In this document: positions 4,498 through 28,915 of the stretch, piece by piece | Position numbering within the stretch: position 1 is the stretch's first letter | Layout: each line of letters opens with the position of its first letter | Assembly (NCBI GenBank): GCA_018664115.1 | Contig: JABJOX010000031.1 | Location: 1 to 36,664, forward strand | Length of the DNA stretch: 36,664 nt | Origin: Candidatus Woesearchaeota archaeon | Lineage (GTDB): Archaea; Nanobdellota; Nanobdellia; Woesearchaeales; GW2011-AR9 | Reading direction: 5' to 3' | Translations under genes and position numbers: made by a program | Notes under the pieces: generated by a model | What the model was told of the DNA's origin: nothing | The model's input: only the letters and a program-made list of their open reading frames with translations | The model's database searches: none

Positions 4498-5610
4498 TTA
4501 AGAGGAGGTAAAACTTTGAATGTCTGATTCTGTTCCAGATTTAAGCGTAGTTACAGCAAAAAGGTAACTCCCATATTCTTGAGAAAGAGAACTTTTACCA
4601 ACAACATAAACCATTTTATCTCCACAAAGGTAACCTTTCCCAATTTCTTTAGTAGTACAATCGGTGTTTAGATCAGCTTTATTGACAGTCCAAGAACTAT
4701 GAGAGTAAAGTAAGTTTGCTGGTACTTGTGCAAAGATGTCTGCAGCTTTACCTGTTTGAGTTGCCAGAGCTAAATAGTCAGTATAATACACTTTGTAACT
4801 ATCGGCAGTATCATCTTTAGCAACAGAAATTTCATAACTATCAGTTTGAGTTTGTAATTCAACGTTACTAACAGTTAAAGCCCCGGTAGGAGTGAAATCT
4901 AAAGCAAACTTATATTTGATTGAATTTAAACTTGTTGAGGTGACACAAAAACCAATTTCTCTACCCGCAAAGAAATTCTCAGTATTGCAAGAAGTATCTT
5001 TCCACGTAGGGAGTTTATTAGCAGTGAGGCAAGTAGATAAATCATTAACGTTCTGACAGGTGGCAAGAAGATTTGTCGCTGTAGAAATTAACGAATCATA
5101 CTCTTGGAACGAATAACCCAAATCAACAATAAAATCTGTTTGGTAATAATATTTTCCTGACTTGGTAATAATATCTTTTTTATTTCCATCGGCAAGAAAG
5201 AATGTATCTTTAAATTCAATATTGAAATAAGAATTTTGAGGTATTTTTTTAGTTAGTTTCTTTTGACCATGTTCATTTAAAGAATCTTTAATAACAGGAA
5301 AACATTTTTTATCTTCTTTATTCCAGAGATTAATACTATTAATGGTGGCACAATCAGAACTCTTTCCTGGTGAAAAACCTGAATTCTCGGCTAATTCTTG
5401 AGCAATTTCTCTGCCTGTAGTGATAGCAACACCATCAATATGAAGGGATTCTTTTTCTGCAGCCAAAACATTATTAACTAAAAAGTCTGTTGCCCATTCT
5501 CCTTTCACGCCCACATCAACTTGACCAGTTTTACTGAAAAATAAAAATACTCCTAAAGCTATCATGATCCCAAAAATTGTCCAATGCATTAAACTTCCTT
5601 TCTTATTCAT
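4498..5610 (-). CDS. Pilin-like membrane-anchored protein, 370 aa (last gene of block 1)
   Basis: The N-terminus MNKKGSLMHW followed by a hydrophobic helix (about residues 9-25) looks like an archaeal class III (prepilin-like) signal: a short basic stretch, then G/A, then a helix that would anchor or polymerise the mature protein. The remaining 340 residues would be outside the membrane. They contain scattered pairs of cysteines (DCATINS, CFPV, LATCQNVNDLSTC, DTSCNTENFF, GFCVTS, DCTTKEIGKGYLCG) and beta-rich stretches, as in disulfide-stabilised surface proteins. No known domain is recognised. It sits one base after the stop of the preceding gene and ends the block. A role as a large minor pilin or a filament-tip protein is inference from position and signal only. 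Confidence 0.75.
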   Translation of the reverse strand: MNKKGSLMHWTIFGIMIALGVFLFFSKTGQVDVGVKGEWATDFLVNNVLAAEKESLHIDGVAITTGREIAQELAENSGFSPGKSSDCATINSINLWNKEDKKCFPVIKDSLNEHGQKKLTKKIPQNSYFNIEFKDTFFLADGNKKDIITKSGKYYYQTDFIVDLGYSFQEYDSLISTATNLLATCQNVNDLSTCLTANKLPTWKDTSCNTENFFAGREIGFCVTSTSLNSIKYKFALDFTPTGALTVSNVELQTQTDSYEISVAKDDTADSYKVYYTDYLALATQTGKAADIFAQVPANLLYSHSSWTVNKADLNTDCTTKEIGKGYLCGDKMVYVVGKSSLSQEYGSYLFAVTTLKSGTESDIQSFTSS

Positions 5611-5611
5611 T

Positions 5612-6025
5612 TTATGTTATTGATGGTGAGGTATAACATTCTCCATTATCATCATACCAATCGCATGAGAATCCAGGGATGTTAGTATAAATACTAACAG
5701 CATCACCATTACATTCAGTCTTGGTAATATAATCAGGACAACTAGTAATAACTCTTCCTGCCAAAACTTTACTGCCAGCTACTTGATCATCGATTTCTTC
5801 TATTGTAAAAAAATTGTCTTGTTGATAAATTTGAATACGGAGATTATTTACTGCTGATTCCGTTTGTCTAAATTCGGCTACACGGGTAATTGCTTGTTTA
5901 TTACTTTCATTAACACCGCCGTTCAAAATTGCTCCTAAGAAGATTAACAAAAAGAAGGCAGTAGTAATAGTAAACAGAAAATCAAACAAATCGTCCAGCA
6001 TTGCTTTTTTATTGAATCTTTTCAT
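5612..6025 (-). CDS. Small pilin-like protein with Cys/Trp C-terminal module, 137 aa
   Basis: The start MKRFNKKAMLDDLFDF has the KKA prepilin-like pattern and acidic residues just after it, then a hydrophobic helix at about 15-35. The short outer part holds a charged helical stretch (AITRVAEFRQTESAVNNLRI) and ends with TECNGDAVSIYTNIPGFSCD followed by WYDDNGECY. Such a spacing of Cys, then Cys-x-Trp and a final Cys recurs in other proteins of this cluster. The gene starts by overlapping the previous stop by four bases (ATGA), showing translational coupling. The family is not recognised. It resembles a small structural or minor pilin, with low certainty about function. Confidence 0.75.
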   Translation of the reverse strand: MKRFNKKAMLDDLFDFLFTITTAFFLLIFLGAILNGGVNESNKQAITRVAEFRQTESAVNNLRIQIYQQDNFFTIEEIDDQVAGSKVLAGRVITSCPDYITKTECNGDAVSIYTNIPGFSCDWYDDNGECYTSPSIT

Positions 6026-6489
6026 GTTCCTATTTTCTCCTGCACGTAAATAATTAATCGATCTTTAAACAAACCGGTTTGTCTTTTAACTAAAACTTCT
6101 TTAAAGATGGTAAATTTGTCAACGTTAGCATATTTATCAGTTGTTATTTCTTCACCAGAACTTTCCAATTTCAACCTAAAGTTAAATGTTTTAATTCCTC
6201 CTGCAGAAGCAGTACTATAACATTTCAACAAAGTTTCTTCATTAAATTTAACTAAATCAATCGTTCCCAAAATGACTTTATCACTGATGTTATAAGCGAA
6301 ACAGTCCGGATTACTAGTAAATCTTAAAGATATCAATTCTGCTCTAATTTCGGGTGGTACTTTAGCTAAATTGTTACGGTAACTAGCAATCACCATCGCA
6401 AAACCAATAACTACTAAAGTAATAACTAATCCGGCAATCATCCAATAGATGGTTTTCCTTGCGGCTGCAAATTGTGCTTTCTTATTCAT
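6022..6489 (-). CDS. Pilin-like protein, 155 aa
   Basis: The N-terminus MNKKAQFAAARKTIYW matches the archaeal prepilin pattern best of the block: KKA followed by Q, the residue most often found right after the cleavage site. The hydrophobic helix covers about residues 14-36, with two basic residues between signal and helix. The outer domain contains two Cys (NPDCFAYN and LLKCYSTA), possibly a disulfide, and beta-type strands (FNFRLKLESSGEEITTD, FTIFKEVLVKRQTGLFKDRL). No known domain. It overlaps the upstream gene's stop by eight bases and the downstream gene's start by four, so it is translated as part of a coupled set. Confidence 0.75.
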   Translation of the reverse strand: MNKKAQFAAARKTIYWMIAGLVITLVVIGFAMVIASYRNNLAKVPPEIRAELISLRFTSNPDCFAYNISDKVILGTIDLVKFNEETLLKCYSTASAGGIKTFNFRLKLESSGEEITTDKYANVDKFTIFKEVLVKRQTGLFKDRLIIYVQEKIGT

Positions 6490-7141
6490 TTTCTATGGGA
6501 GGGTTATATTTTTGTAAGTATCTAATTAATTTAATATTTTCTTGGGCTGGTTTTTGTTTGTCAAATTTTCCACCTGTCACAACCATAGTGTTAACAGACA
6601 TCCAATATGATTTATCTGGACTCCATTCCCAAGATTTATCCTGGTATCTATAATAAAGAGGAGTAGCAAGAACTCCCGCATCATAAGTATAAATCCCTGT
6701 ATCATCTGGGGAACCTAATTGGGGTGGAACTTTATTATCGGCTACTTCCATACATTTTTTAAGGATTATTTTTTTGTTTAATTTTTCCAAACAAACATAA
6801 TTAGCTTCTAAAACAGTTCCTTGTGCATCGTAATTCTCGGGAAGGAAAAAAGTAGTTACAATCCAAACATTTTCTTCTTCACCTTTCTTAAAAACTGAAA
6901 TTGAACCTCTTGTTAAAATAAAAGAAAATTTAGAAACTTCTTGCGGATAGGAAACAATAGCATCTCCAGGAACAGCAACTAGAGTGTCAATCATCATTCT
7001 CAATTCTTCGGCGGCATTAATTTTAGTTACTTGATCTGACTCGCCGTAAGCTTTACCAATGGAAACAGTCATATAAACAACTAGGAGAACGACAAGAATT
7101 TCAAAAGTAATCATAATTACACTGGCAGCTTTCTTATTCAT
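6482..7141 (-). CDS. Pilin-like protein, 219 aa
   Basis: MNKKAASVIMITFEILVVLL is a short prepilin-like signal with KKA and a glutamate inside the hydrophobic segment (E14), reminiscent of the conserved Glu of type IV pilins, though its spacing differs. The helix runs to about residue 28. The outer domain starts with a helical linker (VTKINAAEELRMMIDTLVAV), then beta strands, two Cys close together (ANYVCLEK and ILKKCMEV), and a Trp/Tyr-rich C-terminal half (YYRYQDKSWEWSPDKSYWM). I recognise no family. It begins three bases after the stop of the 210-aa gene and overlaps the next gene. Confidence 0.75.
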   Translation of the reverse strand: MNKKAASVIMITFEILVVLLVVYMTVSIGKAYGESDQVTKINAAEELRMMIDTLVAVPGDAIVSYPQEVSKFSFILTRGSISVFKKGEEENVWIVTTFFLPENYDAQGTVLEANYVCLEKLNKKIILKKCMEVADNKVPPQLGSPDDTGIYTYDAGVLATPLYYRYQDKSWEWSPDKSYWMSVNTMVVTGGKFDKQKPAQENIKLIRYLQKYNPPIENE

Positions 7142-7144
7142 TTT

Positions 7145-7777
7145 CTAACTTTCAAGAAGTATTGCATCTTGAGATTTTTCTATAGTGAGTGAGATTCTTC
7201 GAGAGGCTTCGTAATGGGCATCAAAAGAATAAAATGCATTTTTAGCATGTTCTATCATAAGTCGTTCAATAGTAAAACCATCTGAACAAGAATATGAAAC
7301 AACATCTTCAGGAATTCCAATACCACAACTATTTAATTTTAAATCTAAGTTTATATCTTGTTCACAAATATTTTGAATTCCAATAACGTTAACTAATCTG
7401 CTACCGGCTTCCATCACATTCACTTCTCTAAACAAACAAAGACAATTCTTTTCATCTGAACAAGAAGAAGGTTTTTCAAAAATTACTTTGTAATCTCTTG
7501 CTGCCCAACCATCAACATCAACCCCGACTTGAGATTTACCTTTCTCAAAGTAAATTACGGCAGTAGGTTCGTCAAGAATTAAAATGAAATTTTTTCTCTC
7601 GCCAAGTTGTGCTGTCTCCATCTCTTTAATCTCATTAACGAAATTAACGAAGTTATCTTTAGCTTGGTTACTCAAACTAAAAAATTTAGAAGCGAACAGA
7701 CAAGCAGGAGCAAAGATAATAATCGCTAGTAAAACTGTTACCAAAAACTTTATCATAATTGCTTTTTTATTTTTCAT
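7145..7777 (-). CDS. Pilin-like protein, 210 aa
   Basis: MKNKKAIMIKFLVTVLLAII gives the KKA pattern and a hydrophobic helix at about 10-30. A helical linker follows (QAKDNFVNFVNEIKEMETAQ). The next part, FILILDEPTAVIYFEKGK, looks like the beta strands that also open the outer domain of the 187-aa protein at 14719-15282 (FFPPEKFEHICFVN), suggesting that both are versions of one subunit type. The middle has a cluster of Cys (PSSCSDEKNCLCLF, NICEQ, NSCGIG, SYSCSDG). No known domain. Upstream, two runs of eight T separate it from the 487-aa gene, so it may be the first gene of a partly separate five-gene unit. Confidence 0.75.
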   Translation of the reverse strand: MKNKKAIMIKFLVTVLLAIIIFAPACLFASKFFSLSNQAKDNFVNFVNEIKEMETAQLGERKNFILILDEPTAVIYFEKGKSQVGVDVDGWAARDYKVIFEKPSSCSDEKNCLCLFREVNVMEAGSRLVNVIGIQNICEQDINLDLKLNSCGIGIPEDVVSYSCSDGFTIERLMIEHAKNAFYSFDAHYEASRRISLTIEKSQDAILLES

Positions 7778-7783
7778 TTTATT

Positions 7784-7801
7784 AAAAAAAATTAAAAAAA
7801 A
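7784..7801 (-). terminator. Double T-run, possible intra-operon terminator
   Basis: On the minus strand two runs of eight T separated by AA lie between the stop at 7802 and the start at 7777. In archaea such T-runs end transcription, at least in part. No convincing TATA box follows, so it may only lower expression of the five genes downstream. Confidence 0.4.
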
Positions 7802-9265
7802 TTATTTAGGAACCCATTTTCTATCTTTACAAATATAAAACTTATTACCAAACTGCAATTGTTCTTTCTCGCCAGCAGGATTACACAATCTCCATAAACC
7901 TTTATGACAAATTAATGAACCCGCCGAGGTTGATTTCCAAGAGTAAGCCATTGCATTATCTGCATCATCGCCCCTAGAATTAACAAAAGCAGTTTTTAGA
8001 TTATTGAATTTAACATAATTATTATCCTGGTCAATAATTACTTCATCTACTGCTCCAGCATAACCGCAATCATTTGTAGTTGTATCATCTTCAGTAACAA
8101 CAATCAAACAACCATTACTTTCTGGATTCCACGATGAAGAACTGGGAAATTGTCCTTGACCACAAGATTGGGCAAGACTTGAACAATCATAACCAGAAGC
8201 ATCTCCAATATAACCTCGACACATTTGAGTGATAGGTTTTTGTTCTGGGTCAGCTGAACCTTCATCATTGATAACTAATTCAACAGACTTAAATGCTTCA
8301 AATTGAAAATAGTCGAATTTCTGGTTTTTCAAAACAACATCTATTCCCATTTCATTGTTATTCTCATCTTTTTCTGCCAAATCATTTTCAGAATCAACTC
8401 TAATCTTTAACCAACATTCTTGAATGTCAGGTCCGTCACAAGCATCGCCATTGTCACCAACTTTAACGAATTTAGAATAATCAATCCGATCGTTAATAGT
8501 TTTATCATAGCGCATTGATTGAGTACTAACCCAATTAGGAACAAAATTACCAGTAGGAGATTTAGATTCGTAAAGGTTTTTCTTAACACAATCATCCTGG
8601 TCAGTTGCATCACAAACAAAAATACTAGTTTTGAAGTTTTTAGTAATATCTTCTTCGCCTAAATTTTTTGCTTGAGCTTCAACTTCAATCCACTCAAACT
8701 CTTCTGTACCACCCAAATTTTCATTAATTTTATCTCTAACCTGTTTACCATTAGCTTTAAATTTAGTAATTGTCAGATCACCTTCAGTAGGAACACCTTG
8801 ACCAGTAGAGTCTGGAACGGCTACAACAGTGCTTTTAATTTCACCGCATCTAGTTTTATGTTTTTCATCATCTGTGGCACCAGTAACAGCAAAATTTTTA
8901 CAAGTACTTCCATCATCCTCACAATCTTCAACCGGATTATTTTCATCATCAGTTACGAACCAATTACAAGTTTGTCGGTCCCATTCAGCTTTCTCTACAG
9001 TTGTTCCTTGCGGACAGCCACGTAAATCTTTCATCTCTTGACCTTTAGTTGACATACAAGGACATTGATCGAACATATTAGAAACACGGTCTTTATCACA
9101 ATCACCAAAATCATCAATTTTTTCGTTAACTCCAACAAAAATTTTTGTCAGACTAGCATCAGTAAAAATTAAAATAAGAACCAGGAAAATAAAAGCAATC
9201 ATCATCGCTACAATAACTGTAGTTACCCACTTAGCAGCACCTTTTTTGTTATTATTAAATTTCAT
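7802..9265 (-). CDS. Pilin-like surface protein with TSP3-like and CARDB-like regions, 487 aa
   Basis: I chose the ATG at 9265 because GAGGTG (9272-9277) lies six bases before it; the frame also opens at a TTG further up. The protein starts MKFNNNKKGAAKW with a prepilin-like KKG and a helix to about residue 35. Next come CDKDRVSNMFDQCPCMS and DLRGCPQGT, which resemble a thrombospondin type 3 calcium-binding repeat. A middle beta domain (from GDLTITKFKANGKQVRDKI to WLKIRVDSENDLAEKDENN) has the ending ENNN typical of CARDB/APHP-like Ig modules. The last third is rich in paired Cys and aromatic residues and ends ICKDRKWVPK. This is probably a large subunit that presents adhesive or calcium-dependent modules on a pilin-like stem. 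Function is inferred. Confidence 0.75.
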   Translation of the reverse strand: MKFNNNKKGAAKWVTTVIVAMMIAFIFLVLILIFTDASLTKIFVGVNEKIDDFGDCDKDRVSNMFDQCPCMSTKGQEMKDLRGCPQGTTVEKAEWDRQTCNWFVTDDENNPVEDCEDDGSTCKNFAVTGATDDEKHKTRCGEIKSTVVAVPDSTGQGVPTEGDLTITKFKANGKQVRDKINENLGGTEEFEWIEVEAQAKNLGEEDITKNFKTSIFVCDATDQDDCVKKNLYESKSPTGNFVPNWVSTQSMRYDKTINDRIDYSKFVKVGDNGDACDGPDIQECWLKIRVDSENDLAEKDENNNEMGIDVVLKNQKFDYFQFEAFKSVELVINDEGSADPEQKPITQMCRGYIGDASGYDCSSLAQSCGQGQFPSSSSWNPESNGCLIVVTEDDTTTNDCGYAGAVDEVIIDQDNNYVKFNNLKTAFVNSRGDDADNAMAYSWKSTSAGSLICHKGLWRLCNPAGEKEQLQFGNKFYICKDRKWVPK

Positions 9266-9282
9266 TTTATACACCTCGCGTA

Positions 9283-9337: not shown

Positions 9338-10207
9338 TTATTGTCCACCTAAATCTTTAACACAATTGGCTGTACTAATTAAATTAAGTTCACCCAAAGT
9401 TATCGTACTTAGATCTCTTTCAGCACCAGTAAAATAATCATTATAAGTAGCATAACCACCGCCAGCAGCAGCACCTACCACCACGACAGCTGCGCAAGCT
9501 CCAAGGGTAACAACAGAACAAAGTACTACCCCAGAAACAACCGCTCCAGCTAAAGCAGTTTTCCATAAAGCACCAGAATTGCCTTCTTTATTCTTAGCCA
9601 TGTAAACAATACCATAAGAGTGTTCTGCTTCAATCGGATTAGTTAAGACCACCATGCCAGGACCACCATAACTTTGAAAATAATCTAAATACTTTAAACC
9701 TTTGATATCTTTATGATCTTTTTCAATAACATAATTTAACATTTCTTCCATGCTGATAGTGTCACCCTCAATTTTGTTTTGATCAATTGTGGCAGTATAA
9801 CATAAGAAACACTTATTATCATTGCTTGTAAGACCTAACATTTGTTGAAAAACACCCGGATTTTCTAAATTTTCTTCATGTCGACCTTCGCCAAACATCC
9901 ACCAACAACGAGCCATCATATAAGCTAATTGAGATTTAATCTCTTCACGATTACCAATGATTTCTTTATCTTGAGTTTTACATAAAACTGGCGCTAAAGC
10001 GACATTAGTACCACCAGCTTGAACAGCAGTAGTTGCCCGAAGATCAATACTGGTTTTACAAAGTAGTTCTGCTTCTTTAACTTCAGTTTTACTCATGAAA
10101 CCAAAAATGACACTAGCAATAATAATAAAAGCGGCAATTACAGAAATAATTACTACTAAAGTTCCAGCAGTAATTCCTTTTTTTGATTTTAATTTTGATT
10201 TTAACAT
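9338..10207 (-). CDS. Pilin-like protein with second hydrophobic segment, 289 aa
   Basis: The start MLKSKLKSKKGITAGTLVVI has a long basic stretch ending in KKG, then a hydrophobic helix (about 14-37). The outer part contains CKTSIDLRATTAVQ, a conserved-looking MMARCWWMFGEGRHEEN, and CFLCYTA, so several Cys near Trp residues. A second long Ala/Val/Gly-rich hydrophobic stretch at about residues 213-256 could be another membrane pass, which is unusual for a pilin. The C-terminus is short and polar. It overlaps the upstream gene by seven bases. I recall similar CW-MYGEGK-type proteins annotated as hypothetical in DPANN genomes, but I cannot confirm this here. Function unknown. Confidence 0.75.
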   Translation of the reverse strand: MLKSKLKSKKGITAGTLVVIISVIAAFIIIASVIFGFMSKTEVKEAELLCKTSIDLRATTAVQAGGTNVALAPVLCKTQDKEIIGNREEIKSQLAYMMARCWWMFGEGRHEENLENPGVFQQMLGLTSNDNKCFLCYTATIDQNKIEGDTISMEEMLNYVIEKDHKDIKGLKYLDYFQSYGGPGMVVLTNPIEAEHSYGIVYMAKNKEGNSGALWKTALAGAVVSGVVLCSVVTLGACAAVVVVGAAAGGGYATYNDYFTGAERDLSTITLGELNLISTANCVKDLGGQ

Positions 10208-11028
10208 GTTTTTAATTTACCTTCCCTTACCTGTCGAGGAATAGCGATATCTTCATCTGGATCTTCTCCTAAACAATCGTTATCCAAACCTTCTGCAGAA
10301 CTCCCATCACAATTTCCTGCAGCATCTCCCAAAATAGTTGGGAAGAAACAAATATGTTCATTATCAGGGGTATAAATAATTCCTGCATCTTGAAAATTAA
10401 AACATTCATCATTTACTATGTCTTTACCTAATTCAGGAACAAGGATTTGATTACCATTTTTACAAGCTAGAGTAGCACCTTCATAATAATGGAGAGTAAT
10501 ACTATTAACATTCCTAAAGTGATTATCAACAATACTTTTTCCGGTTAGAAAACTTTTGTCAAAATTTTTAGTGATAGTAGAATCTCCAGCAATAACACAA
10601 GGAATCATGCCCTCAATTTCAAATGATAAGTCGGTAACTAGTTGATCTCCACCAGCGCCGCCAAGAACTCTAAATTTAGTTCCGCCATCAGAACGGGTCA
10701 TCACAATAGAAGTGCCTTTCTCACCCAATGGAGAAAAACCACCATAATTAGCAAAACAATTTTTCTCTGAACTGCTTAACATTTTTTCAATAGCATTTTT
10801 TAGATTTGTCAATTGAGCTTTATGTTCTGTAGAAATGTCAGGTTTAGATGCACTTAGACCTTTATCACCAATAGAAATGTTAGGGACATATTCTTTTGCG
10901 GAATCTACGCCACTTTTAAGACTTTCAAAAGCACTTTCATCACCACCATAATAATTAAACAGTAAAAAGGCAGCAACAATAATGGGAATAATATATAAAA
11001 CTAATTTTTGGGAAATTACTGTAGCCAT
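10201..11028 (-). CDS. Membrane-anchored outer protein without KK-G/A signal, 275 aa
   Basis: This protein breaks the pattern of the block. Its N-terminus, MATVISQKLVLYIIPIIVAA, has a single helix (about 9-25) but no K-K-G/A motif, so it is probably held by an uncleaved anchor or an ordinary Sec signal. The outer part contains a charged linker, a glycine-rich middle (FRVLGGAGGDQLVTDL) and four or more Cys. It ends with acidic, calcium-loop-like sequence (GLDNDCLGEDPDEDIAIP) and a C-terminal Cys. The ATG follows directly after the stop codon of the 46-aa gene with no gap, indicating coupled translation. I recognise no family. Confidence 0.75.
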   Translation of the reverse strand: MATVISQKLVLYIIPIIVAAFLLFNYYGGDESAFESLKSGVDSAKEYVPNISIGDKGLSASKPDISTEHKAQLTNLKNAIEKMLSSSEKNCFANYGGFSPLGEKGTSIVMTRSDGGTKFRVLGGAGGDQLVTDLSFEIEGMIPCVIAGDSTITKNFDKSFLTGKSIVDNHFRNVNSITLHYYEGATLACKNGNQILVPELGKDIVNDECFNFQDAGIIYTPDNEHICFFPTILGDAAGNCDGSSAEGLDNDCLGEDPDEDIAIPRQVREGKLKTC

Positions 11029-11169
11029 TTAAAAAAGACCTCCCATTTTATCTAACATACCTTCTAAACCGCCACCTAAATCACTATACCACCACAAAAG
11101 AAATACTAACAAAGCAATCGCTAAAAAGATCATGATTAGTTGCCACATTTCCATCCCTTTTTTGTTCAT
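11029..11169 (-). CDS. Very small pilin-like protein, 46 aa
   Basis: This short gene is easily missed, but it fits exactly between its neighbours. Its ATG overlaps the upstream stop codon (ATGA) and its TAA is followed at once by the ATG of the 275-aa gene. The product starts MNKKGMEMWQLIMIFLAIAL, with the KKG prepilin-like motif and one helix (about 8-27). It ends in a short glycine- and methionine-rich tail (YSDLGGGLEGMLDKMGGLF). At 46 residues it is almost only a stem helix, so it could be a minimal structural subunit or a regulator of assembly. Function not known. Confidence 0.75.
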   Translation of the reverse strand: MNKKGMEMWQLIMIFLAIALLVFLLWWYSDLGGGLEGMLDKMGGLF

Positions 11170-11348
11170 GGTCCTAATTTACCTTTTAATGTCCAAATGT
11201 AATAAAGGAAAGCTAACCCTAAAATAATTGACAAAATTACAGTAATCATTGTTGTGGGACTGGCCCAATCAACTGCTTTTTTTCCTTTTGGAAAAAAAGT
11301 TGAAAAATTGTTTTGACAATTTTTGCTTATTTTTTTGTAAAGTTTCAT
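11166..11348 (-). CDS. Small pilin-like protein with long leader, 60 aa
   Basis: A 60-residue protein with a basic leader of about 25 residues (MKLYKKISKNCQNNFSTFFP, then KGKKA) and one hydrophobic helix at 33-52 (TMITVILSIILGLAFLYYIW), ending in a short basic tail. The GKKAVDW junction is like the prepilin-like sites of its neighbours but follows a much longer leader. After cleavage only about 35 residues would remain, again nearly all helix. It starts 12 bases after the stop of the 110-aa gene and overlaps the 46-aa gene by four bases, so these two tiny genes form a coupled pair. Family unknown. Confidence 0.7.
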   Translation of the reverse strand: MKLYKKISKNCQNNFSTFFPKGKKAVDWASPTTMITVILSIILGLAFLYYIWTLKGKLGP

Positions 11349-11360
11349 ATTTGAGAGAGA

Positions 11361-11693
11361 TTAACCGCAATATTTTTTACCATTACTGGCGATTATTGGC
11401 CCACTACATTCACCAACCTCATAGGGTTCCTTACTAGAGTCATGTTCTTTAGGATTTCCTAAACAACATAGTTCATATCCTGCTTTATTACAATCAAATG
11501 TTGATGCTGACAAAGTACTTTTAGGACAATTCTTGCCTTGAACACAAATTCCGCCTTTACTTTCACAGCCAGACAAACCACTCTCAAGTTTATTGCTTTT
11601 TCCACTAAACATAACCATTAAAATGATCATTACTACCAGAGCAATTACTGCCCCGATAATAATCCACCACATATTGGCACTAGCACGCCTCAT
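11361..11693 (-). CDS. Small pilin-like protein with six-Cys domain, 110 aa (tandem paralogue A)
   Basis: MRRASANMWWIIIGAVIALV starts with RRA and a helix to about residue 30. The outer part has the cysteine order C-E-x-K-GG-x-C, then C-P-x-S-T-L, FDC and a final CCLGN, so six Cys that could form a compact disulfide domain. A short tail adds two more Cys (GECSGPI, KKYCG). It is a clear tandem copy of the neighbour at 11690-11962: the DNA coding for the membrane helix differs at about two positions in 77, whereas the outer domain has diverged. It overlaps that gene's stop by four bases. Confidence 0.75.
   Translation of the reverse strand: MRRASANMWWIIIGAVIALVVMIILMVMFSGKSNKLESGLSGCESKGGICVQGKNCPKSTLSASTFDCNKAGYELCCLGNPKEHDSSKEPYEVGECSGPIIASNGKKYCG
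11610..11686 (-). repeat. Near-identical helix-coding duplicate, copy A
   Basis: This 77-base stretch codes for the membrane helix of paralogue A and matches 11862-11938 at all but about two positions, including silent sites. This indicates recent duplication or gene conversion. Confidence 0.8.
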
Positions 11694-11962
11694 TTTTTAT
11701 TACCCAAACAACATATGGTGTTAGGCTTATCAGGAGGACAATCAAAAAGGGTTGCTGGTAATGTTCCTTCAGGACAACCAGGTTTTTTTGGTTTACATTC
11801 ACCGCCTTTACCTTCACAACTAGACAAACCCGTCTCAAGTTTACCGCTTTTATCAGTAAACATAACCATTAAAATGATCATTACTACCAGAGCAATAACT
11901 GCCCCGATAATAATCCACCACATGTTGGCACTAGCTTTCTTGTTAAAGAGATTCATCTTCAT
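11690..11962 (-). CDS. Small pilin-like protein with six-Cys domain, 90 aa (tandem paralogue B)
   Basis: I chose the ATG at 11962 because it forms an ATGA overlap with the stop of the gene before it; ATGs at 11968 and 11956 are alternatives. The start MKMNLFNKKASANMWWIIIG carries KKA and then the same helix as paralogue A. The outer domain, beginning SSCEGKGGECKPKKPGCPEG and ending NTICCLGNKK, has the same six-Cys pattern as paralogue A with different spacing residues and more Pro and Lys. The two look like a recent duplication in which the stem stayed fixed and the exposed part changed. Confidence 0.75.
   Translation of the reverse strand: MKMNLFNKKASANMWWIIIGAVIALVVMIILMVMFTDKSGKLETGLSSCEGKGGECKPKKPGCPEGTLPATLFDCPPDKPNTICCLGNKK
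11862..11938 (-). repeat. Near-identical helix-coding duplicate, copy B
   Basis: Counterpart of 11610-11686 in paralogue B. Outside this stretch the two genes differ markedly. Confidence 0.8.
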
Positions 11963-12306
11963 TTCCATTTACAGCCAGCAGATTCACAAGTACCTTTGTC
12001 TGAGTTACCTTTACAAGAACTAATGTCATCTTTATACTGAGCTTTTAATAATTCTTTAGATTCTTCAGATTCAGCAACCTTAAAGTCATTACCAAAAGTT
12101 ACTTCTGCAGTTGCACTAGGATGACAATCGCCATATGTTATCTGCATTTGAACCATTTCTGCTTGAGCAGCTTTATCTAATCCACCCTGAAAAATTCCAA
12201 TCCTACCAGTAAAAACCATTATTAAAACCACTAGTACAATTAAAGCCAAAGCAGCTACAATAATTGTTGTTAAAGACAAACCTTGTCCCTTCTTATTAAA
12301 AACCAT
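11959..12306 (-). CDS. Pilin-like protein with KKGQ signal, 115 aa (first gene of block 1)
   Basis: MVFNKKGQGLSLTTIIVAAL is a textbook-like archaeal class III signal: KKG followed by Q, then a helix at about 11-33. The outer part is short, has one Cys in the middle (YGDCHPSATA) and ends with SCKGNSDKGTCESAGCKWK, a Cys/Trp module like that of the 137-aa protein. As first gene of the block with a strong ribosome site (GAGGTGA, 12313-12319, six bases before the ATG) it may be the most abundantly made subunit. That is inference. Family not recognised beyond the signal. Confidence 0.8.
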   Translation of the reverse strand: MVFNKKGQGLSLTTIIVAALALIVLVVLIMVFTGRIGIFQGGLDKAAQAEMVQMQITYGDCHPSATAEVTFGNDFKVAESEESKELLKAQYKDDISSCKGNSDKGTCESAGCKWK

Positions 12307-12361
12307 TTCAATTCACCTCAATTTTAGTTAATATTATTTATATTAAAAGAAAGGAAAATAG

Positions 12362-12369
12362 TATATAAA
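12362..12369 (-). promoter_or_regulatory. TATA box of block 1
   Basis: TTTATATA on the minus strand is about 59 bases before the ATG at 12306, predicting a leader of some 34 bases. The leader holds the strong ribosome site GAGGTGA, as expected for a gene with a real 5' untranslated region. Confidence 0.5.
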
Positions 12370-12375
12370 TGTTTT

Positions 12376-12448
12376 GAAGGCTTTAGCCGAGAAACGACTA
12401 AAAAATGAAGTTTTTTGAGTATGTTGCGAAGATTTTAATCTGAGAAAC
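12376..12448. repeat. Two copies of a small hairpin motif with different stems
   Basis: Two elements about 52 bases apart share the frame GAA, then a stem around TT, then GAGAAAC. In the first the stem is GGCT/AGCC (12379-12388), in the second AGATT/AATCT (12430-12441). Sequence differs but pairing is kept. They fill the gap between the stop of the gene at 12464 and the promoter of block 1. Confidence 0.55.
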
Positions 12449-12463
12449 AACGAAAAACTAGAC

Positions 12464-13033
12464 TTAATCACACAAATACAAGTTACTTTCAATCAAGCCA
12501 GCATCCGTATGTAACGGAAACAAGCCGGAAACATCCCGATCTTTAGATCTAGGACAACCACCGCCAACTTTTATTGGACCAACAATAGTAAGTGGTTTAT
12601 CTTCTTGTGCCCGAATTAATTTTACTTGAAAAACATATTTTTTATTCCACTCACCCAATGTTTCGTTTAATAATTCTTTAATCAATTGATTAGCAAAATG
12701 ACAACTATGTAACCCTTGACATTGATACAATGAATAACTGTCAGGATCATCAACAGAATAATAATCATAATTTTTTGCACAATCTTCAAGTAAATCTTTA
12801 CCTAACTGAGGTTGCACCCATTTTTGATAAGTTCCAGAACAACTTTGATCAGAGATAGTAGTTTTCATTAAAGAGGACATGGTACTATAAGCAAGACCTT
12901 TACGAGTAAAGATTTTCTTTTTAGCATCTTCTTTCAAAGCAAACTGAGCCATGAACAACATTCCTAAAGCAATCAAGATAACAATGATAACTAGACCGAT
13001 TATCTCCACTTGTGCTCTTTTTCTATTAATCAT
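12464..13033 (-). CDS. Pilin-like protein with KRAQVE signal, 189 aa (last gene of block 2)
   Basis: MINRKRAQVEIIGLVIIVIL has basic KR, A, then Q-V-E before the helix (about 10-30). This is the strongest prepilin-like start in block 2 and is like the start of many archaeal proteins with a RGQVE-type motif. The outer part has a helical linker, several Cys (DQSCSGTYQKW, LEDCAKNY, YQCQGLHSCHF, GGGCPRSKD) and a C-terminal Cys close to the end (LYLCD). A beta stretch KYVFQVKLIRAQEDKPLTI lies in the second half. It overlaps the previous gene by four bases. No known family. Confidence 0.75.
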   Translation of the reverse strand: MINRKRAQVEIIGLVIIVILIALGMLFMAQFALKEDAKKKIFTRKGLAYSTMSSLMKTTISDQSCSGTYQKWVQPQLGKDLLEDCAKNYDYYSVDDPDSYSLYQCQGLHSCHFANQLIKELLNETLGEWNKKYVFQVKLIRAQEDKPLTIVGPIKVGGGCPRSKDRDVSGLFPLHTDAGLIESNLYLCD

Positions 13034-21779: not shown

Positions 21780-24092
21780 TTATTTCTTTTTACAACGAGC
21801 AAGTTTAGTTTTTGTTTTCATATCGCATAAGGAACCTGAAGAATCAGGATCAAAAGAATTAAATGTGGCAGTTATATTGGGGTTTCCACAAGTACTACTT
21901 GACCAATAAAAAGAACAAGCACCTTGGAATAAATCGGGCATTTGACAACTGGAACCGTTTTTATCGTCAACTGATAATAATTCTTGGTAAGTAGGTAATT
22001 CCCAATTAGATGATCCCGCCAAAGAAAGATTTTCACAATAATTCATACAACCATCCCAATCCATCATTTGAGAAGAGGGATTTTTCTGCCAAATATTTCC
22101 AGTTTCATTATCTTTGATTGTTCCGTTGCCTTGATCAACAAACCTTTCTTCTGGAATATCAACACAATTTCCATTTTCACAAGTTTCATTATTTCCACAG
22201 TATTCTTTAGAACTCCACTCTAAACAGCTATCTGAATCATAATCGCCACATTTTTTCCAGTCGTCACCAACACATTCTTTTTTTCCAGAAGGTGAACATT
22301 CATCGTTACAAGTAGGACCGCAATTATCTTCATCTTCGCCAGAATTGCAATCATTTTGATTATCGCAAAGATAAGATTTTGGAATACAATCTCCATTATT
22401 ACATTCGAATTCGTTCGAAGTACAATCAGTTGATTTTGGTACACAAGAATTGTTTTTACAATTTTCATTGGAATTACAATAATCAATTACTTCGTCTAAA
22501 TTGCCACAAGAATCAACCCAGATAACATCTTTATCGCCGTCATTATCAGCATCGTAACAAGTTTGATTATTTTTAGGAGTGCAATCAGTTGATTTTGGAA
22601 CGCAAGAATTGTTTTTACAATCTTCATTGGAATTACAATAATCAATCACTTCATCTAAATTGCCACAAGAATCAACCCAGATAACATCTTTATCGCCGTC
22701 ATTATCAGCATCATAACAAGTTTGATTATTTTTAGGGGTACAATCAGCAGTATCTTGACAAGTGGCGATTTCTTTTTTAAAATTATAAACATTAGTTTCA
22801 AAATCAGCAAGAGTTTTACCGAAAACGTCAACATGAACTCCAGCACTAACATTAAGGCCAACGTAAACATCACACCAAGGATTATCCAAAAAATTGACAT
22901 TAGCACCTAAAAAACCTTTCACTGCTCCGTAAGGTCCAGCAACACCATAAAGTTCTAAAGAAAATTTTGGTTTAGCATAAACTTCAATCGAAGCATTAGC
23001 TTTACTAAAACTAAAAGGCGAATAATCAAAATTGTTATCGAAATTTTTAATTGGTGACCATTGTTTATTATTGTATTCAACGCCATATTGTAATTCTGTA
23101 GATTGTTGAATAGAAGTTTCGGCACTCAATTCACCGTTAGCATCAACGCCAAAAGTAATGGTGAAATTTGGAGTGATAATGACTGGAACCGGACCAATAG
23201 CAAAAGCAATCGGTGGGAATTTAACCGGTTCTAAAGGTGGTAATTGATCATGGATAATTTGAGAATATTCTCCCCTAATTTTTAATTCCAAATCTTCTGT
23301 TCCGGTAATGGTATAACGGACACGTTCGACTTTAAACCAACTAATATCTACTTCTAAATCAGCACCTAAAGCCATGTCTAAATTGCCGTCAAGGAAAAGA
23401 ATGTTATTGTATAGATTAGTATTATCAAAATTAATATTCAATCCTGTAGAAAGTGGAAATTGTTTAGTTTCGACAGAAACATTATCCATAACTGCATCTG
23501 CTTTATTGAGGTAATCTTCAGAAAAATCAAGGTGCGCTTTTACAGTTCCGTTTTGAATTGCATCTTCAAGGGTAGCTTGTTGAGTTTTTACTGTTATTTG
23601 GTTACCATAATGGGTTGTAGAGATTACTTTACGTAAAATTCCTTTTGGAGTTTTGTTATTTATTCCAGCAACAATTACGTCTCCGTTATTTAAATTTTGA
23701 GCATATTGTGAATCATCATCAAAGATTAAAGTGGTTTTATCTGCAGAAATAACGGACAAATAAGATGCTTCATTATTGCTCAATATTTTTGTAGTATTAG
23801 GAATATCTGCCGAAGAATTAGTACAAACATTATTTTCACAAGATTCATTTTCAGGACAATCAAAATTGTGATTACAAGATTTGTCTTCAACACAATAATT
23901 GTCGATACATAACTCTTGACCGGGACAATCATTATCTTTTTTACAAGAAATATTTTCTTGACTAGTTCCACAACTGCCAAAAGCGAAAGTTCCTAAAGCA
24001 AACAAAGAAACAAATTTGTTTTTGGTAGAATTTCTTATTCGTTGCAATAGAGTTGGTTTAAATTCTTTTTCAGCAATAGTTTCTAATTTCAT
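21780..24092 (-). CDS. Putative lipoprotein with LDL-receptor class A, tandem 53-aa repeats and DUF1566 end, 770 aa
   Basis: The leader has a long basic N-part (MKLETIAEKEFKPTLLQRIR), a hydrophobic stretch and FAFGSCG, where the Cys could be lipidated although the lipobox is imperfect. Cys-rich motifs follow (CKKDNDCPGQELC, CENNVC). A module with GDVIVAGINNKTPKGILRKV resembles repeats I associate with bacterial lipoproteins. A large beta-rich region precedes two 53-residue repeats (about 450-555), each with the calcium-loop-like CYDADNDGDKDVIWVD. An LDL-receptor class A domain (about 555-592) reads FECNNGDCIPKSYLCD and GEDEDNCG, with all six Cys and the acidic calcium site. The end (about 647-770) is DUF1566-like (WQKNPSSQMMDWDGCMNYCE, WELPTYQEL). 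This is likely a surface lectin or adhesin, with modules possibly gained from bacteria. Confidence 0.75.
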   Translation of the reverse strand: MKLETIAEKEFKPTLLQRIRNSTKNKFVSLFALGTFAFGSCGTSQENISCKKDNDCPGQELCIDNYCVEDKSCNHNFDCPENESCENNVCTNSSADIPNTTKILSNNEASYLSVISADKTTLIFDDDSQYAQNLNNGDVIVAGINNKTPKGILRKVISTTHYGNQITVKTQQATLEDAIQNGTVKAHLDFSEDYLNKADAVMDNVSVETKQFPLSTGLNINFDNTNLYNNILFLDGNLDMALGADLEVDISWFKVERVRYTITGTEDLELKIRGEYSQIIHDQLPPLEPVKFPPIAFAIGPVPVIITPNFTITFGVDANGELSAETSIQQSTELQYGVEYNNKQWSPIKNFDNNFDYSPFSFSKANASIEVYAKPKFSLELYGVAGPYGAVKGFLGANVNFLDNPWCDVYVGLNVSAGVHVDVFGKTLADFETNVYNFKKEIATCQDTADCTPKNNQTCYDADNDGDKDVIWVDSCGNLDEVIDYCNSNEDCKNNSCVPKSTDCTPKNNQTCYDADNDGDKDVIWVDSCGNLDEVIDYCNSNENCKNNSCVPKSTDCTSNEFECNNGDCIPKSYLCDNQNDCNSGEDEDNCGPTCNDECSPSGKKECVGDDWKKCGDYDSDSCLEWSSKEYCGNNETCENGNCVDIPEERFVDQGNGTIKDNETGNIWQKNPSSQMMDWDGCMNYCENLSLAGSSNWELPTYQELLSVDDKNGSSCQMPDLFQGACSFYWSSSTCGNPNITATFNSFDPDSSGSLCDMKTKTKLARCKKK
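22428..22745 (-). repeat. Two tandem 159-base coding repeats
   Basis: Units at 22587-22745 and 22428-22586 are nearly identical in DNA, each coding for 53 residues (starting DCTPKNNQTCYDADNDGDKD). The few differences suggest a recent internal duplication within the 770-aa gene. Confidence 0.9.
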
Positions 24093-24113: not shown

Positions 24114-25322
24114 TTATTTTCTCCAAGTAAGTAGAGAATTATAATCTATCCAAGGAAATTGAAATAATTCCGATGACTTAAAATCCCACACTTTATCTTC
24201 AACACCTCTGCCAAACATGAGTGCTTTTGAATTGTCTGGACTAAAAAGTAAGCCATAATATTTTTCAAATTCTAGCTTTTGATTAGAACCATCAAGAGAA
24301 ATTGAACAAAGATTCTTGTCGTCAGGAAAACAATCTTCTGGAGAACAGGTATAATAAATTTTATCTGCACCACCAAAAACAGGGCCAAAATTACAACCCC
24401 CATTATTAGTTAATCTCATTAAATTGTCTCCATCACCATTCATAAGATAAATTTCTCGTAAAGCTTTTGTTCCGTTTGGAGAAATACTAAAAGCAATTTT
24501 CCCTTCCGGAGAAGTGTCGAAAGGAAGATAAAGTCCTGACGCAGATTCAGCAAGTGGTTTGGTATACAAAATTTGTTTATTACTTCCATCAAGATCAATA
24601 GAAACCATAATATCTTTAGGGCCATTCATACGACCACTATAAACCATTTTATTGTTTGATAACCAAGAGTGTTCTCCAACTCCCGGACCTTCAACAATTT
24701 TATTAACCGTTGAAGTTGCAATGTCTAAATAATAAAGAATTCCTTGACCTTCCATAAGGTCATAATCAACAAAAGAAACCTTAGAATTGTCTGGTGAAAT
24801 CTTAGGGAAATGAGAAAAATTAAAATTTTGAAGCGTAGAAAAATAGGGGATTTCAGTTTCTTCTGAAGTACTTAAATTAATATTAAAAATTGTTCCATTA
24901 CCCCTAATAAAATATATTTTACCACAACCAATTTCATCAGTAAGATTATTACAATTATTGTCTACTCCATCACACCAATCTGTTTGTTCTGGATTAATGA
25001 AATCATCAAAGTCGTCACAATCGGTTCCACCATGAATTATTGCTTTAAAACCATCATTATCATTATCTTCATTAACAGTTTCAGGTTCTTCGGGAGGATT
25101 GACACATTCGTTATTAACACAAATTCGAGCGCCTTTACATTCGCTATTATAAACACAATCCTGCAATGAATTATCTCCATTATCACAAGACAATAAACCT
25201 GCACTGCTAGTAGCAAAGGCTAAAGGGATAGTGGCATAAAGAATTCCTTTGGAAATTGTAGTTAGGAAATTTTTAAAACGTGATGGTTTAAATTCATTCT
25301 CAGTTATTTGTTCTAATTTCAT
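24114..25322 (-). CDS. Putative lipoprotein with MopE-like metal-binding motif and TolB-like propeller, 402 aa
   Basis: The ATG at 25322 lies about 28 bases from a good TATA box, so the upstream frame start at 25334 would precede the transcript start. The leader MKLEQITENEFKPSRFKNFL closely matches that of the 770-aa gene next door and ends in SSAGLLSCDNGD, a possible lipidation Cys. Then come YNSECKGARICVNNECVN, and an acidic motif DNDNDGFKAIIHGGTDCDD with INPEQTDWCDGVDNNCNNLT (about 82-130), typical of the MopE-like putative metal-binding repeat. The rest is beta-propeller-like in the TolB/PD40 manner: ISPDNSKVSFVDYDL, DIATSTVNKI, MVSIDLDGSNKQIL, ISPNGTKA, FSPDNSKALMFG. It would sit on the outer face. 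The ligand is unknown. Confidence 0.75.
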   Translation of the reverse strand: MKLEQITENEFKPSRFKNFLTTISKGILYATIPLAFATSSAGLLSCDNGDNSLQDCVYNSECKGARICVNNECVNPPEEPETVNEDNDNDGFKAIIHGGTDCDDFDDFINPEQTDWCDGVDNNCNNLTDEIGCGKIYFIRGNGTIFNINLSTSEETEIPYFSTLQNFNFSHFPKISPDNSKVSFVDYDLMEGQGILYYLDIATSTVNKIVEGPGVGEHSWLSNNKMVYSGRMNGPKDIMVSIDLDGSNKQILYTKPLAESASGLYLPFDTSPEGKIAFSISPNGTKALREIYLMNGDGDNLMRLTNNGGCNFGPVFGGADKIYYTCSPEDCFPDDKNLCSISLDGSNQKLEFEKYYGLLFSPDNSKALMFGRGVEDKVWDFKSSELFQFPWIDYNSLLTWRK

Positions 25323-25345
25323 TATAACTGTCAAATAGTAAAAAC

Positions 25346-25355: not shown

Positions 25356-25361
25356 TTGTTG

Positions 25362-26414
25362 TTATTTAGCTATTTTTCTTAATCTTTTGATAAGTTCATC
25401 AACATCTTTCTTTTCTTTGAATTTTTTAGGATGAGTTAATTTTTCTCTGAAATTTTCTTCCCGTTCTTTTATTTTATCAACAACCTGTTCAAGATTATGA
25501 AAATATTCTTTTTTCGGTTCTGGATGATATTTATTTTTTCTGTGGTGAGCACTGACAACATTCTTTAATATAGAAAATTCATCTTTAGTAATCTTTTTAG
25601 GGATTAAACCAACCGCAGCTAGAAAATCTTCTCGTTGCACTTGTTTAGCTTTGTGTTCTCTTTTTTGTTTTAGTAATTTGACCTTTTTTCTGGAAGCAGG
25701 AGTAGAGAATAATGGAGAGTACCATTTCAATTCTTCTTTTGTTTTAATGATTTCTTTCTTTTTAGCAAAAAGATGTTTTACTTTATTCCAAAAATTCTTT
25801 TTGAAATAATTAAAGTGGTAAAAATGGTGAATAACCATAATCACGATAATGGTAAACATCAAGAGGAAAAGCCAGAATAAATTTTTATTTGAATCATCTT
25901 GAGTAATGTTTTCTTCTGTAATATTAGTTTCTTCAATTACATCAATTTCTTGAGGTTGAGCGCATGATTCTAAACATTCTTTTTCTGAAGATTCGGTAAA
26001 TGAAAAATCTTGAAGATTATTTGTTGCTTCAATTTCACAAAGACCTTTACTAGTTTTGTATTGGCAATAATCTGCAAATTGACAACAACCTCCTTTAACA
26101 CACCATAACTCTTCTTCTCCAGCAGGAACTGCTCCAGATTTACATTGACTCAACAATTGGTTTGAACAAGTATCTTTACAAAAGATGGTTTTACATTCGG
26201 TAAATAATTCTTCATCATTACAACTTTCTTCTGGGAAGAAAGATTCTTCTAAAACACAATCTTCATAGAAAAAACATTCAGTTTCCGCTTCTTCAATAAT
26301 TAGATCCGAACAATGGGCGGGGCTATCGGAGTAAAGAAAACAGCCTGATTGTGCTAATGCTAGATTGATCAATAGGAGGAGGGTTAATGTTGTTATTGTT
26401 ATTGTTTTATTCAT
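25362..26414 (-). CDS. Membrane-anchored Cys-rich surface protein with basic tail, 350 aa
   Basis: I chose the ATG at 26414 because a clear Sec signal follows (MNKTITITTLTLLLLINLAL, then AQSGC) and the frame start at 26444 would overlap the previous gene. The ectodomain to about residue 150 matches, Cys for Cys, the N-terminus of the 2131-aa protein: SGCFLYSDSPAHCSDLIIEE, ETECFFYEDCVLEESFFPEE, CNDEELFTECKTIFCKDTCS, GAVPAGEEELWCVKGGCCQF, DYCQYKTSKGLCE. A membrane helix follows (LFWLFLLMFTIIVIMVIHHF). The 130-residue C-terminal tail is strongly basic and helical (KEIIKTKEELKWYSPLF, FLAAVGLIPKKITKDEF). It looks like a short version of the giant protein, without its middle modules, which suggests a shared partner outside and a tail-binding partner inside. 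Confidence 0.8.
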   Translation of the reverse strand: MNKTITITTLTLLLLINLALAQSGCFLYSDSPAHCSDLIIEEAETECFFYEDCVLEESFFPEESCNDEELFTECKTIFCKDTCSNQLLSQCKSGAVPAGEEELWCVKGGCCQFADYCQYKTSKGLCEIEATNNLQDFSFTESSEKECLESCAQPQEIDVIEETNITEENITQDDSNKNLFWLFLLMFTIIVIMVIHHFYHFNYFKKNFWNKVKHLFAKKKEIIKTKEELKWYSPLFSTPASRKKVKLLKQKREHKAKQVQREDFLAAVGLIPKKITKDEFSILKNVVSAHHRKNKYHPEPKKEYFHNLEQVVDKIKEREENFREKLTHPKKFKEKKDVDELIKRLRKIAK

Positions 26415-26425
26415 TTTAAATTTGT

Positions 26426-28915
26426 TCAGGTGATAGGGATACACGAAGCGCCATTACAATTTCCTGGTTGTCCGGTTTTTAAATCCCAACAAGGGCCAAT
26501 ATCCTCAGAGTTACAATCACGACATTCATCATTTTTACCTAAACTGCCATCTCCATTAGCATCAACAGCAATTTCTGTGCAAGCAGTTCCTCCTTTTCCA
26601 CAACCATAATCTCCGTCGCAAAAGAAACCTTTTACGAAATCATAAGAGTAAGGTTCTTCATCTTTACAAAAAACTTGATCAACTTTATTACAATTTAAAT
26701 ATATGTCTTCATTACCGCATTTATTTTCATGGGGTTCAGGAGGAGATTTTTTATCACCATCGCAAACAATTCCACTAGTACCAGAACAATAAGTTACGGG
26801 AACTCTTTTAACCAAGATTGAACCACCAATAGGGTCTGCATCTGTACCACCAAAACAACCGAATTCTTCTTCTTCTCTATAACATTCATGAAAATCATCA
26901 GCTTCATAATATTCCCAATCTGGATTACAACAAACGTGTGTTGCTAAGAAAGGACTGAAATCTTCATCTATTTTACAATTATCATTATTTTCATCACAAT
27001 CATATAATTGATACAACTTTTTATCATCATTTTTAATATAAGGAAAAGGATGGTCAGGATTAACATGAGGGATGCATTCTTTTATAGTAACATCAATTTC
27101 CGTTTTTGAACCAAGATTATTAGCACAATAATTTTTTGTAGAAGAAAGTAACAATTTCCCTGTACTTTCTACTCCACCTGAAATACCTTCTTCAGGGGAT
27201 TCAGTTAATAATTCATATTTTAAAAAATAAGAATTTGGATTACAAAAGTCATCCACACCAGATAAATCATAACAAACTGGTTGATCAGATAAAGTCTCTG
27301 GTTTAGGTAAAGTAGCTAATTCATCATATTCCTCCCCTTTTTGATATCCTAATTTTAATGTAGGAAAATCCCCATAAGTTACTTTGGGGTAAGTGACATT
27401 AATAAAAAAAGGATCTTCAGAAGAAATAAATGTTTCTACAAGATCCGAATAAGGAACAAGTTCATTACCTTTTTCAACCATATAAGGATAAAAAACTTCA
27501 AAATCTTCTGGACCAAAAGTTAAAGAATCGTCGACCAAAACTCTTACCTCTTGCCAATCACTTAAACCGTGTTCGTCGGTTGCTGTTGCTTCTAGGTGGT
27601 ATATTTTCGCTGGTAAATCTACATTTTTAACAATAAACTTTTTTGGATCATCGCTATTATCATTTATTAATTCTAGTGATTCTGTTGAATCAAAACCATA
27701 AGTAACTACATCGCCATCGGCATCTAAAGCATTCAAAGTGATATCAATCTCACCGTAATCATCGTGGCCAGGAATGGCCAAATAATCATAACTATTATCA
27801 GGATCATCTTCAACAAAACAAGGGAACTGGCTTACATAATCTAATGCAGGGGGTCGATTCTGAATAGCAAATCTGAATTCATAAGGTTCCGGCAAATTAA
27901 GAATTTCCGGAGATTTGAAAATTAAAATGGTATCGCCGTTAGCTAAAGAAATATTATCCATCTCTATTGCTAATGATTCATATTTATCATACAACAAAGT
28001 TCCTTGACAAACATTATCATCACAGCTATCGGCATTACTAGCATAATCAAAATTCTTTTTTTGTAAAGTTTGTTCAGTATAATTAAACCCAATGAATTTC
28101 CAATCATAAAAAAGAGGTCGGGCAACTGCTGCATCTAACAAAATATTAAACTTAGTAGGATAAAAGAAATCAAATTTCGAGATGTGAAAAAATTCTTCTT
28201 TACCCAAAGATAATTTTAAAGGATATTCAACATTAACATTAATTCCATCATTAGTAAAGTCAAGTTTTAAATTAATTTTCGTATCTTCAATTTTTGTTTT
28301 ATCAGAAATTTCTGATTCTGTGAAATTTTTCACACAAAAAATTGTTCGATTAATCAAATATTTTCGTAAATCACCTTCAATAGTACTTGTTTTTATTTCC
28401 CGAGAACCAAAACCAATAGAAGTGTTGGGATAAAGGTATTGACAAAATTCTGGGGCATAAGAATCGTTTTCACAAGGATAAGCGTTCTGATGTTGAATAT
28501 AATTTTCATTACTAATTCCGTAAAAAATTCTTTCTCCTGGTTGGTAAGTTACTCCTGTGATCTCTTCAACGAACGGTTTAGTGCCGCCTGGTTGACCTTG
28601 CCACAAGCGACCTTGTTTACCAATAAGAACTAAACCTGCTTCTAAAGCATCGTTTAAACAATCCTGAACATAAATACGTAAAGCTTCTTTTTTAAAAGTT
28701 TTAGAAACAACTCTTTCTTTTTCTGCTTCAAGGTTAGATAGTTTAGTATCACTAGCTAATTTTATAGTAATCATGAAAATGAAGAGAAGTAACAAACCCA
28801 AGATAAGAAAAACTGTGATTTGTGCTGACTTATTTGGAGGCATGCCCAAAAAACGTAGTTTTTTTGTGTGGCCTTTATTCTTCCAACTACTTCTACCTAA
28901 CCTCTTTTTTACCAT
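26426..28915 (-). CDS. Large pilin-like protein with KSAQ signal, 829 aa
   Basis: A TATA box about 30 bases upstream supports the ATG at 28915, giving a basic leader of some 30 residues (MVKKRLGRSSWKNKGHTKKL) before NKSAQITVFLILG and a helix at about 34-51. Near the membrane comes YVQDCLNDALEAGLVLIGKQ, followed by a domain with CQYLYPNTSIGFGSREIK and FCVKNFTESEI. The middle has an Ig/cadherin-like module with DALDADGDVVTYGFDS-type strands (about 375-460, YHLEATATDEHGLSDWQEVR). The last 200 residues are extremely Cys-rich and include AVDANGDGSLGKNDECRDC, a dockerin-like or EF-hand-like calcium loop. It is by far the largest pilin-like protein here and probably forms a stem-mounted adhesin with the neighbouring giant protein. 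Confidence 0.8.
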   Translation of the reverse strand: MVKKRLGRSSWKNKGHTKKLRFLGMPPNKSAQITVFLILGLLLLFIFMITIKLASDTKLSNLEAEKERVVSKTFKKEALRIYVQDCLNDALEAGLVLIGKQGRLWQGQPGGTKPFVEEITGVTYQPGERIFYGISNENYIQHQNAYPCENDSYAPEFCQYLYPNTSIGFGSREIKTSTIEGDLRKYLINRTIFCVKNFTESEISDKTKIEDTKINLKLDFTNDGINVNVEYPLKLSLGKEEFFHISKFDFFYPTKFNILLDAAVARPLFYDWKFIGFNYTEQTLQKKNFDYASNADSCDDNVCQGTLLYDKYESLAIEMDNISLANGDTILIFKSPEILNLPEPYEFRFAIQNRPPALDYVSQFPCFVEDDPDNSYDYLAIPGHDDYGEIDITLNALDADGDVVTYGFDSTESLELINDNSDDPKKFIVKNVDLPAKIYHLEATATDEHGLSDWQEVRVLVDDSLTFGPEDFEVFYPYMVEKGNELVPYSDLVETFISSEDPFFINVTYPKVTYGDFPTLKLGYQKGEEYDELATLPKPETLSDQPVCYDLSGVDDFCNPNSYFLKYELLTESPEEGISGGVESTGKLLLSSTKNYCANNLGSKTEIDVTIKECIPHVNPDHPFPYIKNDDKKLYQLYDCDENNDNCKIDEDFSPFLATHVCCNPDWEYYEADDFHECYREEEEFGCFGGTDADPIGGSILVKRVPVTYCSGTSGIVCDGDKKSPPEPHENKCGNEDIYLNCNKVDQVFCKDEEPYSYDFVKGFFCDGDYGCGKGGTACTEIAVDANGDGSLGKNDECRDCNSEDIGPCWDLKTGQPGNCNGASCIPIT

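Follow-up and report, generated by a model that had tools for sequence, protein, structure and literature searches.

The window analysed here is contig JABJOX010000031.1 (36,664 nucleotides; GenBank assembly GCA_018664115.1, Candidatus Woesearchaeota archaeon), contig C44 of a 1.12-Mb genome with a completeness of 86.6%. It carries a cluster of 17 genes for pilin-like proteins together with giant surface proteins. Genes are named by their left-hand coordinate in the window (13550, for example, is 13550..14692); G000 denotes the own genome, G001, G070 and so forth its relatives, and C49, C12 and C52 other contigs of the own genome. All 17 genes, which a preliminary description had singled out for a basic stretch, a G or A and one hydrophobic helix at the N-terminus, are present as open reading frames (ORFs) on the minus strand. 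They form an operon-like run in which most gaps or overlaps are below 30 bp, the widest gap inside the pilin run being 157 bp (12307-12463). In the list below the slash marks the predicted class III cleavage site between residues −1 and +1, and TM stands for transmembrane segment.

4498..5610, minus: pilin-like, 370 aa, NKKG/S site (ORF; G/A at −1 in 12/13 orthologues)
5612..6025, minus: pilin-like, 137 aa, NKKA/M (ORF; G/A at −1 in 11/12)
6022..6489, minus: pilin-like, 155 aa, NKKA/Q (ORF; G/A at −1 in 12/13)
6482..7141, minus: pilin-like, 219 aa, NKKA/A (ORF; G/A at −1 in 12/12)
7145..7777, minus: pilin-like, 210 aa, NKKA/I (ORF; G/A at −1 in 13/15)
7802..9262, minus: pilin-like, 486 aa (ATG at 9262), NKKG/A, ectodomain with 20 Cys (ORF; G/A at −1 in 10/10)
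9338..10207, minus: pilin-like, 289 aa, SKKG/I (ORF; G/A at −1 in 15/17)
10201..11028, minus: membrane-anchored protein, 275 aa, without a class III site (position kept in relatives)
11029..11169, minus: mini-pilin, 46 aa (mature 41), NKKG/MEMW, sequence MNKKGMEMWQLIMIFLAIALLVFLLWWYSDLGGGLEGMLDKMGGLF (ORF; kept in relatives)
11166..11348, minus: mini-pilin, 60 aa (mature 35), GKKA/VDW, start codon uncertain (ORF; similar short genes in relatives)
11361..11693, minus: Cys-rich pilin-like, 110 aa, paralogue of 11690 (ORF; G/A at −1 in 5/5)
11690..11968, minus: Cys-rich pilin-like, 92 aa (ORF)
11959..12306, minus: pilin-like, 115 aa, NKKG/Q (ORF; G/A at −1 in 15/15)
12464..13033, minus: core pilin-like, 189 aa, RKRA/Q (synteny; G/A at −1 in 19/22; in line with the ATPase gene in G070)
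13030..13548, minus: core pilin-like, 172 aa, KKNG/Q (G/A at −1 in 27/30; Q at +1 in 30/30; G070 linkage)
13550..14692, minus: core pilin-like, 380 aa, NKSG/Q (conservation, AlphaFold2 model, G070 linkage)
14719..15282, minus: core pilin-like, 187 aa, NKKG/M (G/A at −1 in 27/28; AlphaFold2 model; G070 linkage)
15285..21680, minus: giant surface protein, 2131 aa (synteny, domain search, G070 linkage)
21780..24092, minus: variable insert, lipoprotein-like, with LDL-receptor class A and Lcl_C domains (outside the conserved set; in few relatives)
24114..25322, minus: variable insert, lipoprotein-like, with a Cu-binding_MopE motif (outside the conserved set; in few relatives)
25362..26414, minus: smaller membrane protein with one further TM and a basic tail (Cys-rich N-terminal domain in common with 15285; 33%, E 9e-13)
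26426..28915, minus: large pilin-like, 829 aa, NKSA/Q (Q at +1 in 17/17; G070 linkage)
28951..34143, minus: giant secreted protein, 1730 aa (ATG at 34143; cluster neighbour in 15/29 relatives)

The giant protein 15285 has a hydrophobic N-terminal signal segment, a Cys-rich N-terminal domain, two CarboxypepD_reg-type domains and, at its C-terminal end, a TM plus a basic tail.

A loose class III rule accepted 15 of the 17 cluster genes and only 8 of 207 control genes taken from 175 kb of the same genome's DNA. The two genes missed, 6482 and 26426, were lost to particulars of the rule; of the eight control matches, two or more are further pilin-like genes beside the prepilin peptidase gene. Position −1 was then compared in the 14 gene families that could be aligned (239 aligned sequences; family 11166 did not align). 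The predicted −1 residue was G or A in 223 of the 239 sequences, mostly following K or R, with the values for 13550 and 26426 read from the adjacent alignment column to correct an offset of one in the script. In several families Q at +1 was invariant or nearly so. By pattern and conservation, the cluster genes thus encode predicted class III signal peptides.

The preliminary description was also right that the outer parts are Cys-rich and mostly different from one another. Cysteine makes up 3.5% of the ectodomains compared with a background of 1.2%, and BLAST detected no relationship among them except between 11361 and 11690 (54% identical). In the window, 15 ectodomains contain cysteine, and the count is even in every one. 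Among relatives the ectodomain count was even in 215 of 223 cases as against 51 of 137 control proteins, a comparison whose p-value ignores shared ancestry. Even counts fit extracellular disulfides. The AlphaFold2 model of 14719 (pLDDT 94) has an N-terminal helix of 52 residues followed by an alpha/beta head, and that of 13550 an N-terminal helix of 54 residues and then a head.

The cluster is strongly conserved. A homologue of 13550 was found in 53 of 60 relatives, nearly always as a single copy per genome, and its family is represented in 285 of the 371 phylum genomes. Within the taxonomic family the order 4498-5612-6022-6482-7145-(7802)-9338-10201-mini-pilins-11959-12464-13030-13550-14719-15285-25362-26426-28951 recurs, and the core 12464-13030-13550-14719-15285 is found across most of the taxonomic order where the region was read. 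The 46-aa gene 11029 keeps its place in six relatives (G001, G002, G005, G008, G012 and G015) and is therefore not a chance ORF. These conserved genes and their order, the synteny that the preliminary description had proposed to look for, bear out its idea of a surface apparatus of a DPANN archaeon (Woesearchaeota) built from many pilin-like subunits.

Two apparent results were discarded. Profile matches of the short families 11361 and 11690 in 29/29 relatives reflect common N-terminal helices and not orthology. In G045 and G039, giant ORFs seemed to contain 14719 or 13550 as fusions, which had suggested contact with the giant protein; they were dropped owing to N-runs in the scaffolds. Such N-runs, at L080 9985-15492 and L086 14329-19998 on the scaffolds of two relatives, produce false giant ORFs.

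No gene for an assembly ATPase or platform protein lies within the cluster, as had been noted; the suggestion of an apparatus lacking pilus machinery fails at the level of the genome. Contig C49 carries a single-copy, divergent ATPase of 767 aa that scores above the Pfam cut-off for PF00437 and reaches 1312 bits with its family profile; 368 of the phylum's 371 genomes contain a member of this family. A single-copy, divergent platform protein of 731 aa on C12 scores 1137 bits with a profile built from relatives (A1), a profile that its detection required since PF00482 alone misses the own-genome copy. Profile A1 aligns with canonical TadC in its C-terminal half (hhalign, 85.9%, E 5e-6), and the platform protein of G055 gives a weak Pfam T2SSF match in the half other than the one matching TadC. 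Contig C52 encodes a single-copy A24 prepilin peptidase (PF01478, E 2e-16), while PF06847 (Arc_PepC_II) has no match in the own genome. ATPase and platform genes are adjacent in several relatives, for example G012, G055 and G058. No other genes of these kinds were found in the own genome, which leaves the three as its sole candidates for processing and assembling the pilins of the cluster, although the incomplete genome may have others.

A direct tie between motor and cluster is seen in relative G070. There, on one strand, the orthologous ATPase gene is followed by homologues of 26426, 15285, 14719, 13550, 13030 and 12464 (E 1e-40 to 1e-123), an arrangement that links the motor to the core genes of the cluster. 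A weak 13550 match near an ATPase gene on G057:C43 was not used as a second case, as the ATPase there is a different one of 932 aa.

Several further genes were seen around the machinery. Immediately downstream of the A24 peptidase gene on C52 lie two more class III-like, pilin-like genes (L126 7265-8622). Beside the ATPase gene (L002 15923-18768) are two small, possibly coiled-coil proteins and three proteins of ~190 aa with 5-6 predicted TM, which recur there in relatives. Subtilisin-like and SppA-like proteases are encoded near the ATPase locus (L003 3497-7797), also in G001, and a 671-aa protein at L136 4271-6286 has an N-terminus, NSKKGQITVFIILGILMLLAL, that resembles that of 26426.

Taken together, the parts listed for archaeal type IV pili (Makarova et al. 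2016, PMC4858521) are all predicted from sequence in this genome: class III-like prepilins, a T2SSE-type ATPase, a T2SSF-type platform and an A24 peptidase. We consider it very likely that the cluster supplies the subunits of a single archaeal type IV pilus-like machine, itself part of the core gene set of Woesearchaeota. In such a machine each of the ~17 prepilins would be held in the membrane by its single helix, its basic N-terminus facing the cell interior, and would be cut after the G or A by the peptidase encoded on C52. The C49 ATPase and the C12 platform would then push the mature helices from the membrane and so build a filament. Short subunits, for which the mini-pilins of 35-41 mature residues are candidates, may form the filament core, and the larger, disulfide-braced heads may be minor or tip subunits. 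The giant proteins 15285, 25362 and 28951 could sit at the base or on the surface as anchors or decorations.

A number of results weigh against this interpretation. A strict motif modelled on FlaFind passes only 6 of the 17 proteins, so that the published predictor probably would not call all of them. Scans with Pfam and NCBIfam matched no pilin family to the cluster proteins, and neither PDB sequence searches nor a fold search with the AlphaFold2 models of 14719 and 13550 gave a significant match for the heads. The platform protein of the own genome has no direct Pfam T2SSF match (PF00482). Linkage of the ATPase gene to the cluster is seen in one genome only, and the co-occurrence of the ATPase and 13550 families in the phylum (368/371 and 285/371) is uninformative as evidence of linkage, because both ATPase and cluster are near-universal.

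Some of these results would suit other explanations. If the proteins were ordinary, uncleaved signal-anchor surface proteins clustered by chance and without any link to pili, the low pass rate of the strict motif would fit, and the non-pilin neighbours 15285 and 28951 likewise begin with KRG and a hydrophobic stretch. We regard this as very improbable given the conservation of G/A at −1, the invariant Q at +1 of several families, the presence of the A24 peptidase and the ATPase linkage in G070. The proteins might instead be processed at class III sites and stay in the membrane as single anchored proteins or short stubs, as has been proposed for sugar-binding 'bindosome' proteins, and form a coat around the giant proteins and no filament. 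Heads that are mostly unlike one another and have no known pilin fold, and giant membrane proteins kept in the same operon, would agree with a coat. However, nearly all relatives retain a single-copy ATPase and platform, and the ATPase gene of G070 stands in line with the core genes, which makes a coat quite unlikely.

Another machine of this superfamily, of pseudopilus type, whose short fibre of many minor pilins does not extend and which serves secretion or DNA uptake, is somewhat less improbable than the coat but still unlikely. It would account for the ATPase and platform of type IV pilus type and for the many minor-pilin-like subunits next to no obvious abundant major pilin. On the other hand, the loci read showed no recognisable gene for a substrate or channel, and heads so large and rich in Cys point to display outside the cell. 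The type IV pilus-like machine remains our preferred reading.

Within archaeal type IV pili (PMC4858521) the system differs in having ~17 pilin-like genes at one locus without motor genes, a divergent ATPase of ~770 aa, a platform of ~740 aa and heads without known relatives. To call it undescribed, as in the preliminary description, is too strong, since DPANN pilin islands and conserved DPANN type IV pilus loci are already published (PMC6393860, PMC11291902). The islands, predicted with FlaI and TadC (Makarova et al. 2019, PMC6393860), likewise consist of signal-peptide proteins in arrays, unannotated and predicted to represent diverse pilins (Fig. 2A of that paper). By their description the published islands include the ATPase and TadC, whereas here both map to contigs other than that of the cluster.

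Two conserved type IV pilus loci of DPANN archaea, both with coiled-coil proteins, were reported by Hamm et al. 2024 (PMC11291902), who named filament proteins for locus 1 only. Locus 2 comprises a CpaF-type ATPase, TadC and small coiled-coil proteins and was reported from Woesearchaeota among other groups. The C49 ATPase locus, in G000 and relatives, resembles it by description, with two small, predicted-cytosolic proteins that appear coiled-coil by eye, and for this reason the cluster may hold the filament genes of locus 2.

Epd (EppA-dependent) and Tad pili (PMC6668835, PMC2910488) also have very short pilins, and DUF361 pilins, which are cut by EppA, carry Q at +1 (PMC2910488) as do several families here. 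The two mini-pilins of 35-41 mature residues can, from the genes alone, be set against the very short major pilin of these systems. In contrast to the two separate platform genes (TadB and TadC) of Tad and Epd pili, we found a single platform gene of ~740 aa.

Recognition and holding of the host by DPANN archaea is still an unsolved problem, and a role in contact with hosts has been suggested for DPANN pili (PMC11291902, PMC6142677). Drawing on these suggestions and on general DPANN biology, we find it plausible that the pilus serves contact with a host or other cells. A wider proposal is tentative, and we think it rather doubtful as a whole: a phylum-wide DPANN organelle for obligate host contact, with more than 10 different single-copy, disulfide-braced pilins on a short-pilin core and giant anchored proteins, that would be the filament part of the pilin-less DPANN type IV pilus locus. 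The analysis yields a conserved set of ~20 genes and identified motor parts, which, in full or in part, seem to be present in the majority of the phylum genomes sampled. An island without annotation is resolved into parts that can be tested, and a published pilus locus lacking filament genes gains candidates for them.

Other genes of the window were noted as well. An OB-fold RPA-like gene (3334) and a YdjM-type gene (2851), at 2851-4437, come after the cluster here and in several relatives. Two lipoprotein-like genes (34352-34948 and 35141-35572) have the same leader, GDTIINNNYGSEDVEENG, differ in their outer parts and do not belong to the conserved set. At 35643-36271 a PIN-domain gene and a small gene resemble a toxin-antitoxin pair.

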